NCBI GenBank assembly: GCA_022925895.1
Contig: JAKSYS010000531.1
Location: forward strand, 1 to 43,670
Direction: 5' to 3'
DNA length: 43,670 nt
Source: Fragilaria crotonensis
Lineage: Eukaryota > Bacillariophyta > Fragilariophyceae > Fragilariales > Fragilariaceae
Numbering within the stretch: position 1 is the stretch's first letter; each line of letters opens with the position of its first letter. Both the position numbers and the translations under genes were made by a program. The notes beneath the pieces were generated by a model, which saw nothing but the letters and a program-made list of their open reading frames with translations, was not told the DNA's origin and did no database searches. This document shows, one piece after another, positions 9,260 through 14,057 of the stretch.

Positions 9260-9765
9260 AACAGAAGGTTGAGCAGATCACAACACATCAGCCAGATTTT
9301 ATCTGCAACTTTGCTGTTGTGCATCCTGGGGCCTGTCTTTAGAACTTCTTGCCATTGTCCTCAGCCTCTTGTCAATATTCCAAATACACACTTGACATCC
9401 TTTTGCAAGGATTCAAGCCATTGTGAGAATCGAATCTCACTGTGATTCATAGAATGTTTCAGTGGAGGCACAGTAGTAAGACATTTCAGGTTGCTGTTGT
9501 CTACAATGACATTTGCACCCTTGATCATGATAGCCCGTCCACATTTGTTTGACAGAACAAACAACATCGTGAATCAAACTTGCCTGCTCGGAGTTGCTGC
9601 ACCATGAAGCCGTCAAATTGTATTAGAGTTTTATCATTCAACCTTCCAGAGTGGCCTGGCGTGGTGTGCAATATCTTGCAACAGTGATTGACTGTCGAAT
9701 TGTATGTACAAGTGATGCAAGGCGTCTTGTAGTATTTTAGCCGAGATGGCTTGCCTTAATCCAGT
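9260..9765 (-). mobile_element. PIF/Harbinger transposase relic
   Basis: On the minus strand, in shifting frames, I can read hallmark blocks of Harbinger (DDE_Tnp_4) transposases. In order these are NSTVNHCCKILHTTPGHSGR and LNDKTLIQFDGF (around 9620-9717), VIVDNSNLKCLTTVPPLK, and FSQWLESLQKDVKCVFGIL (about 9375-9435). The last block is KTGPRMHNSKVADKIWLMCC (about 9275-9335). Family members normally read NDKTL, DNGYLKWSTTVPP and SEWLESMRKDVECTFGILKG, so several catalytic-region residues are altered. Stops and frameshifts are numerous; the gene is dead. The relic runs right up to the TTAA that bounds the neighbouring element at 9766. The region is CpG-poor. Confidence 0.75.
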
Positions 9766-9769
9766 TTAA

Positions 9770-10022
9770 CCCCAGTGCGAAAATTCCGTGCGACAAAAAA
9801 GACGACAAAATGTTGAAACCCAATAACAGAGGAACAACCCACAACCATTTGATTCTGAAAAGTGCGATCTGTAATGCTTTTAACCTTCTTCCTACATCTG
9901 TGAGGATAACTTCCTAATCATGATGCTCGCAAAGTTACAACATTGCAAACTTCATCAATTTTTTTTCGGAGTTCGCACGAGTTTGTCGCATGAAAAAAGC
10001 TAGCATGCGACAAAAAAAAATA
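9770..10022. repeat. Left inverted terminus and subterminal hairpin of the TTAA element
   Basis: The terminus CCCCAGT (9770-9776) is followed by TGCGACAAAAAA-type sequence. An inner hairpin has arms TTTGTCGCATG (9982-9992) and CATGCGACAAA (10004-10014) with GCTAGC in the loop. The same motif family occurs inverted at the right end, suggesting transposase-binding sites. Confidence 0.7.
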
Positions 10023-10077
10023 CGACTATTGAAAAATTAACACGAGGAGACTCGCATTGACACAATGATGTTCAGTC

Positions 10078-13000
10078 TTAAAACCGCCGTATTGGAGCTC
10101 TCCTTGGTCTCAGCGATCTCCGAAGTCTTCGTGTTACCACAGGAGTAATCCGAGATCGAACTCTGCGAGGAGCAGGTGGCTCCTCGTTTTCCTGAGAAGA
10201 ATCATCTGGATTCACTGAACCTCGATTCGGAGGTGGTGGTCGGTTTCGATGCGGGATGACGTGAACCACAGCATCCATCTCGGCTGTGCAATAGTCTACC
10301 AATGATCTGCTTGTATGAAATAACTCATGGCAGCTCATGCCGTTGAAACGCTTGACACGACAAAGGCTGACCATGCACACAGGACACATGAACTTCGTCG
10401 TACGACCATGCCTGCAGTGCTTCGGATCTGGTTGATCATGCCTCTTTCTGCAGCACCAGACACAGCTTGTTGGTTTCGATTCCACTTTGCATAGAACATG
10501 TGGCAATGACTGGTCCAATCGTCTTTGAATCATCTCGCGACTTGTGAAGTACAGCTCGCGCTTGTTGTATGTAAAAGACCTTCCGCTTGTGTTCAGAACA
10601 CTTCCTTCTCCCGTCTGCTGGATGCTGATACCACCATCATCTCCTCCTTCACTGTCGCTGCTGTCATCACCTGAAACCTCGAGTGTTAGGTCTTTAGCAA
10701 GAGAACTGCAGAACTTTGAAAAAGACCCATACAGCTTTCGGTGTGCCTGGAATGCAGCATACGAATTGCACCCATCACTTAGCAGGAATGCAACAGAGCG
10801 ACTGAGAATGTAGCTCTGATATGCATTATAAACTCGAGACATCAGAAGACGAAGCCATATGTGTGCCAATGGTGAGAGCTGTGCATGCCGAGCATGGCAG
10901 TTCTTCATGTACCGCGAGAACACATCAACAGGACCTTTGCTTCGATTCCACATTGCTACAATGGTCGGAATCAACATGCGTCCTGCTGGCAACGGTCTGC
11001 CCGGGTCTTCACAAGATTATAGATTGCTCTCCATAGTTCCAACGTATTTTGAACAGTGTACTCGTCAACTGCATGCCTCAGCTTCATTCCTCCCAAACAC
11101 GGTAAACGACCATGAAGTACCCAGGAAAGCTCACGATCATGTACCTCTTGCAATGCACATCGATATTGCTCAACCACCTGCTCATCAACATTCACATGAA
11201 CAACACGAATTATCTTGTGCAATGATGCCACCACATAGAAAGCATGTCGCAGATTGCCACATGCAATGCCATGCAACAATTGACACCTGTACTCGGGCTC
11301 AGGAATCATTCGTTTAAAGTCGTCGTTCGTAGGAGGATCCGTCATAACAACATAAATCGTTGGACACGTGCCGTAGGTCCTGGCCAATGCGGTCTCTTTC
11401 ATTACTGTTGCGGGGGGTGCATTTGCTCTTGATCTCCACTATGAAAGGAATACCTTCGTCCTCGCCAAATATGTTTTCGTTCTCCGCAACTGCAATCGCA
11501 TCGGGCGAGAATGCTGCATAGAACATACCTTTTGCACATAACAAGCCATATTCCCTGATATGTGTCACAACGAAATCGCTTTCCTGATCAAGAAACAGGG
11601 GAAGTCTTGACAATACATTTGACTCATTGAGGGTACCTTCACGCATTGAGGTCGATGAGGCAAAGGGCGACATAAACCACTTCTCCAGAAGAAGTTCCAG
11701 TATTGGGCATTCCCCGTTTGACTGATCAGATCCTCCCCATGAAAGCACTCTATCAATGAGAATTGTTTTGCTCCCTGTCACCAGCAGAGATTTCGCTCGG
11801 CAAATATCTTTTAGGTGTGCAACCGACAACCCCACTAACTCATGTCTACTGTAAATCCGATCAGCCACAGCCTCATTTGGAATGAGTTCATTCGAGCATT
11901 TCAACCCAAGTATTTTACAGCTTGACAGGATATTGTGCGACAGCTCCCCCCTCCACTGGTGACACTGGCGGTGTAACGAGCCCGATGCGCATAGCGCTTC
12001 CATAGTGCAAGAGCAGTGGTTCCAGTAATTTGAAACTGACGCTGGTTGAACCATTCTGGAGATCGTTGCGTATCTGTCAGCTGCTCAACATGGTCTGCTT
12101 CAAACAGTCTAATTACTTCATCATCTGTAGGTTCTGGAGCGACATCGCATCCTCGTTGTCGGGTTACAAGGGTAAACTTTCCCGGTCCGTACCTGTCATC
12201 AGTCGTTTGCATGAGAACCACCCGGCCTAAGCCGTTTCGACTGGCCAGTGCATATTGATGTGTAACTCTTGAACCATTTCTTATCGCCTTCGTAGCCCAA
12301 TAATGGGCTGATGCACCTTTCTCTGCAATAAGCCGCCGGTCTGGGCCCGGATGTTGGTCGTATGTAAAAGGGAACGATCGCATTCTCTTTGTTGTTCCCA
12401 AAAGCATAGCTCCAACCGACACACTCCACTGGTTGACTTCTCCATTCACTCCACCATATCCTCGATCCCAGAAGAAAGTGTTGCCATCGAGTCGGATTTG
12501 CGATTCGGATGATACGCCTGTCATACTCCTCTGCAATATTTTCACACAGTCCAAAGTTGACTCACCCCGAGCTGCAACATGCCCGCCAATATACAAACCA
12601 GTGACCACTGACACTGCTCCATGATGAATGACTCCTAACCCTTTGCAGGGGTTGTTGATCTGTGAGAACCCGTGATTGATGACCCTCTTTGATCGCATCC
12701 GAAGTAAGTCATCGTCCAAACCAACTTGGGTCACTCCTGCAACAAAAGCTAGCTCTGACCCAGTTGAACGAACAATTTCCATTGCTGCAGCCATTTCTCT
12801 GTCATGCTGCATAGGAGGTGTCAAGTTGATGCTGATTCCTGCCTTGAAGTGCCAGACCGTGACAAAGCCTTCAAGATCTCTCGGTATCGAATGAGGTCCA
12901 TACCCTGTCCTGCAGATGGAAAATTTGCTCGCTCATCCATATCAAAGTACAACGAAGGGGAGACTCGGTAGAATGAGAGCATCAATTCAATCCGAATGAA

Positions 13001-13392
13001 GGCAAGTATCTCTGAATTCGAGACGGAATCCCAAGATAAGTTCTTATTGATGAATTGCTTGATATGTCCCAGCAAATTAGCATCCATCCACGCCTCTAAA
13101 AACGAGCAGGTTCAACCTTCCACAGATTCCTGACTCTTCCGCCAAACATCTTGGCTTTCAGACGGTTAAGGACAATTGGTACCTCCTGGCGGGCCACCTC
13201 CAGCAGATGTCGGTCTACTACATCGATCTCGATAGTTGTCTCAAACTCTCTGATGAAGTTCCATTCTCCTATCGGTTCCTCATCGTCGTCTGCATCATCC
13301 AAATCAGCATCACCAGCTGAACCAGACATCAAATACATCATATCCTCAAGATCAGAGTCACTTTCATCGCCACCATCACTGTTGTTTGACAT
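10078..13392 (-). CDS. PiggyBac-like transposase with embedded SAP and YqaJ-type nuclease domains (frame broken)
   Basis: About 1100 residues from ATG 13392. Order: acidic N-terminus (SDSDLEDMMYLM); piggyBac N-terminal block (NSEILAFIRIELMLSFYR); possible first Asp GLDDDLLRMRS (near 12716); second Asp in FFWDRGYGG (12467). An insert follows. YqaJ motif I is QRSPEWFNQRQFQITGT (about 12070), then a SAP-like helix pair (11737-11847). Nuclease residues follow: GTLNESNVL (Glu, 11625), FSPDAI (Asp, about 11508), VEIKSK (ExK, about 11436) and EYRCQLLHGI (Gln, 11282). The DDE fold then resumes with WNRSKGPVDVFSRYM (third Asp, 10926). It ends with a Cys-rich finger (CVWCCRK, CPVCMVSLC; 10315-10464) and an Arg-rich tail. 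Single-base changes are needed near 13098, 12864, 11946, 11412 and 11002. Domain calls rest on motifs read by eye. Confidence 0.75.
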
Positions 13393-13639
13393 GATTGAGG
13401 GACCTTTCAAGAGCAAGAATTGATTTCTTGTTGATGCAATGGCGGGTGCTTGTTGTTGCTGCGCACTTCAAAGTGCACATACACCTCTGTATGAGGGTCT
13501 ACAGATAATACCTACCGTATGTAGAACCTACAGTGTACAAAGACCTGAACTTTTAGTACGGAGACAGGGTGCACAACTGGTCTCTGGAATGCATGCAAGG
13601 GGCAACAAGGGAACTTCAATTGTAGGCATCAATGAGAAT

Positions 13640-13759
13640 CGCTGAAAAACATTTGTCGCACGAAATTTCTCGCTAGCTTTTTCGTAGGACAAAAATTTTG
13701 GGATATCCCAAAACTCGGAAGATTTTTTGTCGCATGCCATGCGACAAAAAATACTGGGG
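13640..13759. repeat. Right inverted terminus and subterminal hairpins of the TTAA element
   Basis: Contains a hairpin with 14-base arms TTTTTTGTCGCATG (13723-13736) and CATGCGACAAAAAA (13738-13751) separated by one base. There is also an 18-base palindrome TTTTGGGATATCCCAAAA (13696-13713) and a GCTAGC-containing copy of the left subterminal repeat around 13650-13690. It ends in ACTGGGG then TTAA. Confidence 0.7.
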
Positions 13760-14057
13760 TTAAGTTACGCTATTTACGGTAGTAGACTAGTACATAGTAC
13801 TGTAGTACTCTGGGAGTTCCAGTACGATTTACAGCACCGGAACCAGATTGTGCTTCACATTACCGGCATAGTATGACACTGGTCCAGCTGCCGCATTCGC
13901 CCGCATTCGTCGACCTCGAAACTCGAACCTCACCTAACGGTTTCGTCTGTCTGTCGGCAAAACCCGAAACCCCAATTCATACTGGCACCATGCAATCCTC
14001 AATGAAAAAAAAAATCCGACACTTTTGGCCCTCCTTCAGCATATTATGTTCGTGACG

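Follow-up and report, generated by a model that had tools for sequence, protein, structure and literature searches.

Does a piggyBac-like transposase of the diatom Fragilaria crotonensis carry a nuclease inside its catalytic domain, or did a nuclease gene land by chance in a single transposon copy? The question is raised by an element at positions 9766–13763 of contig JAKSYS010000531.1, analysed here as a stretch of 43,670 nucleotides (the window), which the original prediction, made from the letters alone, had read as a piggyBac-like transposon whose transposase holds a SAP domain and a YqaJ/lambda-exonuclease-type nuclease. The reading that we favour, with moderate confidence, is that the window element is a broken copy of an old, multi-lineage family of piggyBac type, whose nuclease is nested in the transposase and would resect the 5′ ends of the donor break. 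At least 28 family loci were found in the genome, with lineages down to about 36% protein identity. In 24 of the 27 loci tabulated (L001–L026 and the window; C753 is the 28th), the nuclease lies at the same place and aligns from its first to its last motif, across lineages of about 36–64% identity.

The boundaries of the element came out as originally described, with TTAA at 9766–9769 and 13760–13763, CCCCAGT...ACTGGGG inside, and TGCGACAAAAAA subterminal repeats in both orientations. Short terminal inverted repeats of this CCC...GGG type are those of piggyBac elements. The single gene lies on the minus strand and is split in the window copy between six frame pieces that overlap one another, from 13467 to 10078, and all motifs of the order claimed for it could be placed on that strand. 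The features are, by position:

9766–9769, no strand: left TTAA target-site duplication, read in the sequence
9770–10031, no strand: element end on the gene's 3′ side, with CCCCAGT and subterminal TGCGACAAAAAA repeats
10315–10467, minus strand: Cys/His-rich C-terminal finger, zf-Tnp_2-like
10687–10860, minus strand: C-terminal helices, IWLRLLMSRVYNAY...FSKFCSSLAKDL
10906–10938, minus strand: third catalytic-type Asp motif KGPVDVFSR, at motif level only, presumably corresponding to the piggyBac D447 region
11256–11291, minus strand: nuclease motif YRCQLLHG, its Gln found in 24 of 25 readable copies
11419–11679, minus strand: putative nuclease core with the GTLNE, SPDAI and EIK motifs, from motifs and predicted fold
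11419–11448, minus strand: EIK motif
11491–11517, minus strand: SPD motif
11620–11679, minus strand: GTLNE motif; its Glu, originally placed at 11625, has the codon 11623–11625
11740–11850, minus strand: SAP domain nested inside the nuclease (Pfam SAP match 11740–11835, E 1.1e-6)
12018–12068, minus strand: nuclease motif QR(S/T)PEWF...ITGT, poorly modelled (predicted local distance difference test, pLDDT, under 40 in the C52-region model)
12450–12476, minus strand: second catalytic-type Asp motif FFWDRGYGG, resembling piggyBac ITCDNWF at motif level only
12687–12725, minus strand: first catalytic-type Asp motif GLDDDLL, resembling piggyBac TIDEQLL at motif level only
12821–13111, minus strand: frame piece matching Pfam DDE_Tnp_1_7 positions 9–94 (E 5.1e-7)
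13096–13467, minus strand: N-terminal frame piece with an acidic leader and the start of the N-terminal region
13652–13759, no strand: element end on the gene's 5′ side, with ACTGGGG, TTTGTCGC repeats and a palindrome at 13722–13752
13760–13763, no strand: right TTAA target-site duplication, read in the sequence

The protein thus begins with an N-terminal piggyBac block and two Asp motifs, continues with the nuclease that has SAP inside it, and ends with the third Asp motif, C-terminal helices and a putative finger; the same order was found in all copies readable across. In loci C52 and C509 the main open frame is unbroken, with 1041 and 999 residues respectively and about 60–64% identity between the two, and in both of them one open frame spans the two early Asp motifs, the nuclease and the third Asp motif. 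The first coding part of C52 is one open frame and closes with FYK; an interruption, probably an intron, separates it from VSP, where the main frame takes up again, and the window lineage has no such break. In C509 the first part is split over two frames, and this copy is therefore not claimed to be intact throughout. In the window frame pieces only the transposase and SAP profiles exceeded their Pfam cut-offs, that for YqaJ remaining unmatched: DDE_Tnp_1_7 (PF13843) reached 29.7 bits (cut-off 22.4) over profile positions 9–94 of 349 only, and SAP (PF02037) reached 28.5 bits (cut-off 23.9, E 1.1e-6). Matches to DDE_Tnp_1_7 at E ≤ 10 were obtained for 6 of 16 family fragments (best 2.6e-7). The C-terminal finger matched zf-Tnp_2 in 3/12 members (best E 9.5e-4; 18.2 bits in C110, under the cut-off of 24) and zf-B_box in 4/12 (best E 0.05).

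By motif, GLDDDLL was matched to piggyBac TIDEQLL (D268) and FFWDRGYGG to ITCDNWF (D346), where D268, D346 and D447 are the residues we take to be the catalytic Asp of piggyBac. The GLDDD Asp is kept in all 23 copies that cover the motif, the FFWD Asp in 22 of 24 (20 of 24 with the other query set) and the KGPVD/KGPID Asp in 19 of the 23 copies readable there. LMQTTD had been considered as the second catalytic Asp and was dropped after comparison with the piggyBac residue numbering (D268, D346). The conserved TTD motif reads TTE in the lineage of L005, L006, L007 and L026 (C522, C471, C51 and C65). From the second to the third Asp motif (FFWD to KGPID), C52 has 506 residues, while the same interval takes 124–131 residues, exact to about one residue, in all 12 of the genome's ordinary piggyBac proteins compared; it is thus about 375–382 residues longer. 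The insertion domain of piggyBac, of about 60 residues, lies between the second and third Asp, and judged by motif the nuclease and SAP appear to occupy that same place.

The nuclease is recognized by the motifs QR(S/T)PEWF...ITGT, GTLNE, SPDAI, VE(M/I)KSK and YRCQ, which appear to hold the E...D...ExK...Q set of lambda-exonuclease-like PD-(D/E)XK nucleases, positions that we take to be catalytic. Among the copies readable at each position, the Glu of GTLNE is kept in 22/24, the Asp of SPD in 23/24, the Glu and the Lys of ExK in 20/25 each and the Gln in 24/25, with single residues lost in some decayed copies. Within this one genome, the set is conserved alongside the three Asp (20–24 of 24–25 copies, and 19/23 to 23/23 for the Asp). 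The SAP domain exceeds the Pfam cut-off at 14 of 27 loci, and 10 out of 20 fragments match it at E ≤ 10, with 1.3e-7 as the best value; its position between the first and second nuclease motifs places it inside the nuclease.

The C52 nuclease region (330 residues, 20 mostly partial alignment rows) was modelled with AlphaFold2 at a mean pLDDT of 59.3. In the core, 14 of 16 ten-residue blocks had values of 66–85 and the remaining two 47 and 54; the SAP domain had 63–84. When this model was compared with the PDB using Foldseek, the three best matches were lambda exonuclease chains (best E 2.7e-3), and VIA-align gave Z scores of 9.6 for LHK-Exo, 9.5 for lambda exonuclease and 9.4 for mimivirus R354 (range 9.3–9.6), over 138–153 residues at a root-mean-square deviation of 3.0–3.9. 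Further fold matches were to Dna2, Cas4 and restriction endonucleases. The structure matches belong to the second half of the nuclease domain of C52. The fold expected for window positions 11230–12090 is predicted for the homologous C52 region and not for the window copy, which is frame-broken. At the profile level, a PHROG of RecE-like exonucleases was matched by 2/5 members (best E 6.2e-4) and the lambda-exonuclease family TIGR03033 by 1/5 (E 0.013), while a PDB profile search returned R354 at E 0.027, below SAP proteins. Full family proteins gave no useful match to PHROGs, and none to the PDB beyond a SAP-region match to SIZ1 (E 0.15). A lambda-exonuclease-like fold is predicted for the nuclease. 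The genome's one gene with Pfam YqaJ over the cut-off (C120:137692–138066, L028, in a 510-residue open frame) is outside the transposon family, and a profile comparison of the family nuclease with it was negative.

The family was delimited by genome searches with the window nuclease piece and the C509 protein, which returned pieces at 92–96% identity and others down to about 36%; weaker matches at C131, C340, C261:56575 and a second one in C603 (76154) are outside the tabulated set. In C83, C705 and C38 the nuclease could not be aligned from first to last motif. C83 and C753 are without nuclease and C705 and C38 hold only part of it, and all four are internal deletions or truncations that have lost transposase sequence too. 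No collinear copy lacking the nuclease alone was found among the family loci, which bears out the original expectation that the nuclease is no peculiarity of one copy. Relatives were also sought in viral and prokaryotic collections and none were found (phage tblastn gave nothing better than E 4); few eukaryotes are contained in these collections, so the absence of homologues elsewhere is not established.

Between C52, C509 and C110, the proportion of synonymous differences (pS) is 0.73–0.84, near saturation, and the proportion of nonsynonymous differences (pN) is 0.23–0.25 in the nuclease and 0.18–0.24 in the flanking transposase parts; the ratio of nonsynonymous to synonymous change (omega) for the C52–C110 nuclease is 0.105. 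In the 22 copies, out of 26, that were sufficiently covered, nuclease distances co-vary with those of the N-terminal and C-terminal parts (r 0.70 and 0.81, respectively), with none of 999 permutations as high.

Several results weigh against this reading. Neither profile–profile alignment nor hidden Markov model (HMM) or Smith-Waterman comparison yielded anything significant for the Asp motifs when the Asp regions were set against the genome's ordinary piggyBac proteins and against piggyBac fragments. In a pairwise test the best alignment of one of four members paired GLDDD with TIDEQLL, at a score not above shuffles, and with an HMM of the third-Asp block a few C-terminal pieces scored above most shuffles (C110, with 4 of 500 as high), in an alignment that for C110 does not pair the Asp. 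The whole-protein AlphaFold2 model (930 residues, 54 mostly partial rows) had a mean pLDDT of 37.3 and no claim on fold is based on it, although the order of secondary structure in its nuclease agrees with that of the separate C52-region model. The structural part of the original prediction therefore stands for the nuclease fold, as predicted, and not for a single RNase H fold around the insert; embedding is argued from the order of the motifs, from their conservation and from the piggyBac traits that the protein and the element each show at their two ends. As to the nuclease, its first motif is modelled at a pLDDT under 40, no Foldseek match of the C52 model to the PDB reached E ≤ 0.001, and an unrelated MBL-fold hydrolase model scores better than TIGR03033 (E 0.0049, 1/5 members). 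The Pfam YqaJ cut-off (PF09588) was not reached, with no match in the window and E 0.21 in one of 20 fragments. The YqaJ label of the original prediction was consequently given up for lambda-exonuclease-like, the part of it that the predicted fold bears out. In pairs that include the window, C23, C51, C471 or C45 lineages, nuclease pN (0.34–0.45) is higher than that of the N-terminal part (0.14–0.31), which indicates faster nuclease evolution there, partly caused by misread frames in broken copies. Omega between close copies varies widely (mostly 0.2–1.3), as decaying insertions would show. Finally, nuclease activity, polarity and repair outcome are predicted functions.

Excision by piggyBac proceeds via TTAA hairpin intermediates, and the transposase part of the present protein would cut the element out in the same manner. 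The nuclease, held in the same complex with SAP anchoring it on AT-rich end or flank DNA, could then resect the 5′ ends of the donor break, the element ends being spared while they are hairpins. Without their 5′ TTAA overhangs the donor ends could no longer be rejoined seamlessly, and repair would be left to copying of the sister chromatid or homologue, which would restore the donor copy and raise the copy number. These steps are reasoned from what is known of how each of the two enzyme families works. We offer, tentatively, a further proposal, that a transposase with its own end-resection enzyme inside the catalytic domain dictates how the donor break is repaired, giving effectively replicative transposition in one polypeptide. 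Given an active nuclease, a single protein would allow one to test whether an element can itself control the repair of its donor break. A piggyBac element with a resected donor site would differ from piggyBac as it is employed in the laboratory, where excision without a scar is what makes it useful. Insertions ahead of the last catalytic acidic residue are tolerated by DDE transposases; we know of none in which the insertion is a second complete DNA-processing enzyme.

Other roles can be given to the same nuclease. That it is built into the transposase hints that it works within the synaptic complex, so it might serve in the cutting chemistry itself, by opening hairpins or trimming flaps, or act as an endonuclease, in keeping with fold matches that include Dna2, Cas4 and restriction endonucleases besides exonucleases; we consider this unlikely, since piggyBac opens its hairpins with the RNase H site alone. 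Likewise, the insertion domain of piggyBac is helical and has a structural or DNA-binding role, and the present insert, sharing its place after the second and ahead of the third Asp motif, having a SAP domain within it and changing faster than the N-terminal part in some lineages, may be a domain of that kind with an enzymatically idle or secondary nuclease. Residues of PD-(D/E)XK catalytic type would be needless in a scaffold, yet they are kept across lineages, and an idle nuclease appears quite unlikely to us. There is little to recommend the view that the nuclease defends the element, through the breakdown of competing or invading DNA, and has no role in the element's own transposition: the fold is common to Cas4 and to R354, which its PDB title assigns to a virophage resistance system, but the nuclease has no reading frame of its own, and its place within the transposase links it to the transposition complex, and we hold a protective role to be improbable.

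Resection of the donor break by a nested nuclease is also to be compared with two explanations that concern the origin of the element. Kolobok elements too are known to have TTAA targets and to encode a lambda-exonuclease-like nuclease, so that the element could be a KolobokE-like Kolobok and not a piggyBac. We regard this as highly improbable, given that Kolobok termini are described as 5′-RR...YY-3′ in the part of the source available (PMC9587614), which the CC...GG ends of the window element do not follow, and given the DDE_Tnp_1_7 match over the Pfam cut-off. For a nuclease gene that landed by chance in the window copy alone, nothing was found in favour; the same placement in 24 of 27 loci and several lineages, the constraint between lineages and the insertion common to C52 and C509 contradict it, and we give it practically no credence.

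A family in which a transposase and a nuclease are so combined resembles several known systems in part. Lambda exonuclease, LHK-Exo and mimivirus R354 share the predicted fold and the catalytic motif set, differ in not being part of a transposase, and to our knowledge have no SAP domain. With piggyBac (PDB 6x67/6x68) and piggyBac-like elements, the likeness extends to TTAA targets, CCC...GGG ends, the N-terminal DDE_Tnp_1_7 block, a putative C-terminal Cys-rich finger and, at motif level, the order of the Asp; the difference is the longer stretch between the second and third Asp, which here holds SAP and the nuclease. KolobokE, as far as the available text describes it, also has TTAA targets and an element-encoded nuclease, placed downstream of the transposase and not nested in it (PMC9587614). 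ISL2EU, in the portion of the source at hand, likewise encodes a YqaJ exonuclease domain, in a second open reading frame beside a PHIS-type transposase and with an A|AT|T target (PMC4482050), whereas the present family has a single frame in C52 and C509 and a TTAA target. Both are precedents for the pairing of a nuclease with a transposon and not for nesting. That lambda-exonuclease-like nucleases were paired with TTAA transposons twice, in KolobokE and in the present family, suggests by analogy a shared need at TTAA breaks. A survey of the transposons of one haptophyte mentions piggyBac families, and the words 'nuclease', 'YqaJ' and 'SAP' do not occur in the available part of its text (PMC5963040). 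Among the literature matches listed (titles and starts of abstracts), no nuclease inside a piggyBac transposase was described. As far as those matches go, the novelty originally supposed for the arrangement concerns the place of the nuclease and does not extend to the pairing.

The two ends of the element are asymmetric, as the palindrome at 13722–13752, made of two subterminal repeats with fully complementary 15-base arms and 1 base between them, is found at one end only. The end sequence on the gene's 5′ side also occurs in C23, C261 and non-autonomous elements. A probe of the other end (9766–9960) had 36 genome matches including the window's own, the remaining 35 at 70–99% identity and some of them partial. 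In the coding loci as fetched, TTAA was present on both sides in 2 of 27 (the window and C23) and on one side in six more (C786, C27, C603, C83, C114 and C261); an exact-pattern scan found no end in the remaining coding loci, where some fetched stretches are short and some differ in the first base. Four loci fetched match an element end and not the protein. Three of these, C614:101597–102990, C295:171029–172416 and C877:91857–93169 (L049, L050 and L052), are non-autonomous elements of 1394, 1388 and 1313 bases that have both window-lineage ends, TTAA on both sides and the palindrome, while C442 has one end only. Compared with the window, the gene-5′ end is 97–98% identical in two of them and the other end 81–87%; mobilization in trans is presumed for such elements. 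In the lineages of L003, L015, L002 and of L004, L012, L013, L014, L016, a sequence of TTAACCCG type, which copies share together with its flank, lies inside the element upstream of the gene and, from its sequence, looks like a second, internal end.

The left flank of the element (9372–9763) is part of another repeat (81–84% identity to four places in C108, C657 and C478), which breaks off just short of the TTAA, by a few bases. As the right flank does not carry this repeat on, a neighbouring deletion or truncation is likely. An empty site for the window insertion was sought through these left-flank repeats and none was readable, the repeats not continuing into the right flank. Separately, a search of the genome for silicon transporters gave 19 matches, 18 of them over the cut-off, as fits a diatom genome, and at C97:29749–33762 three tandem silicon-transporter matches lie in one open frame of 1456 residues, apparently a fused triple transporter.

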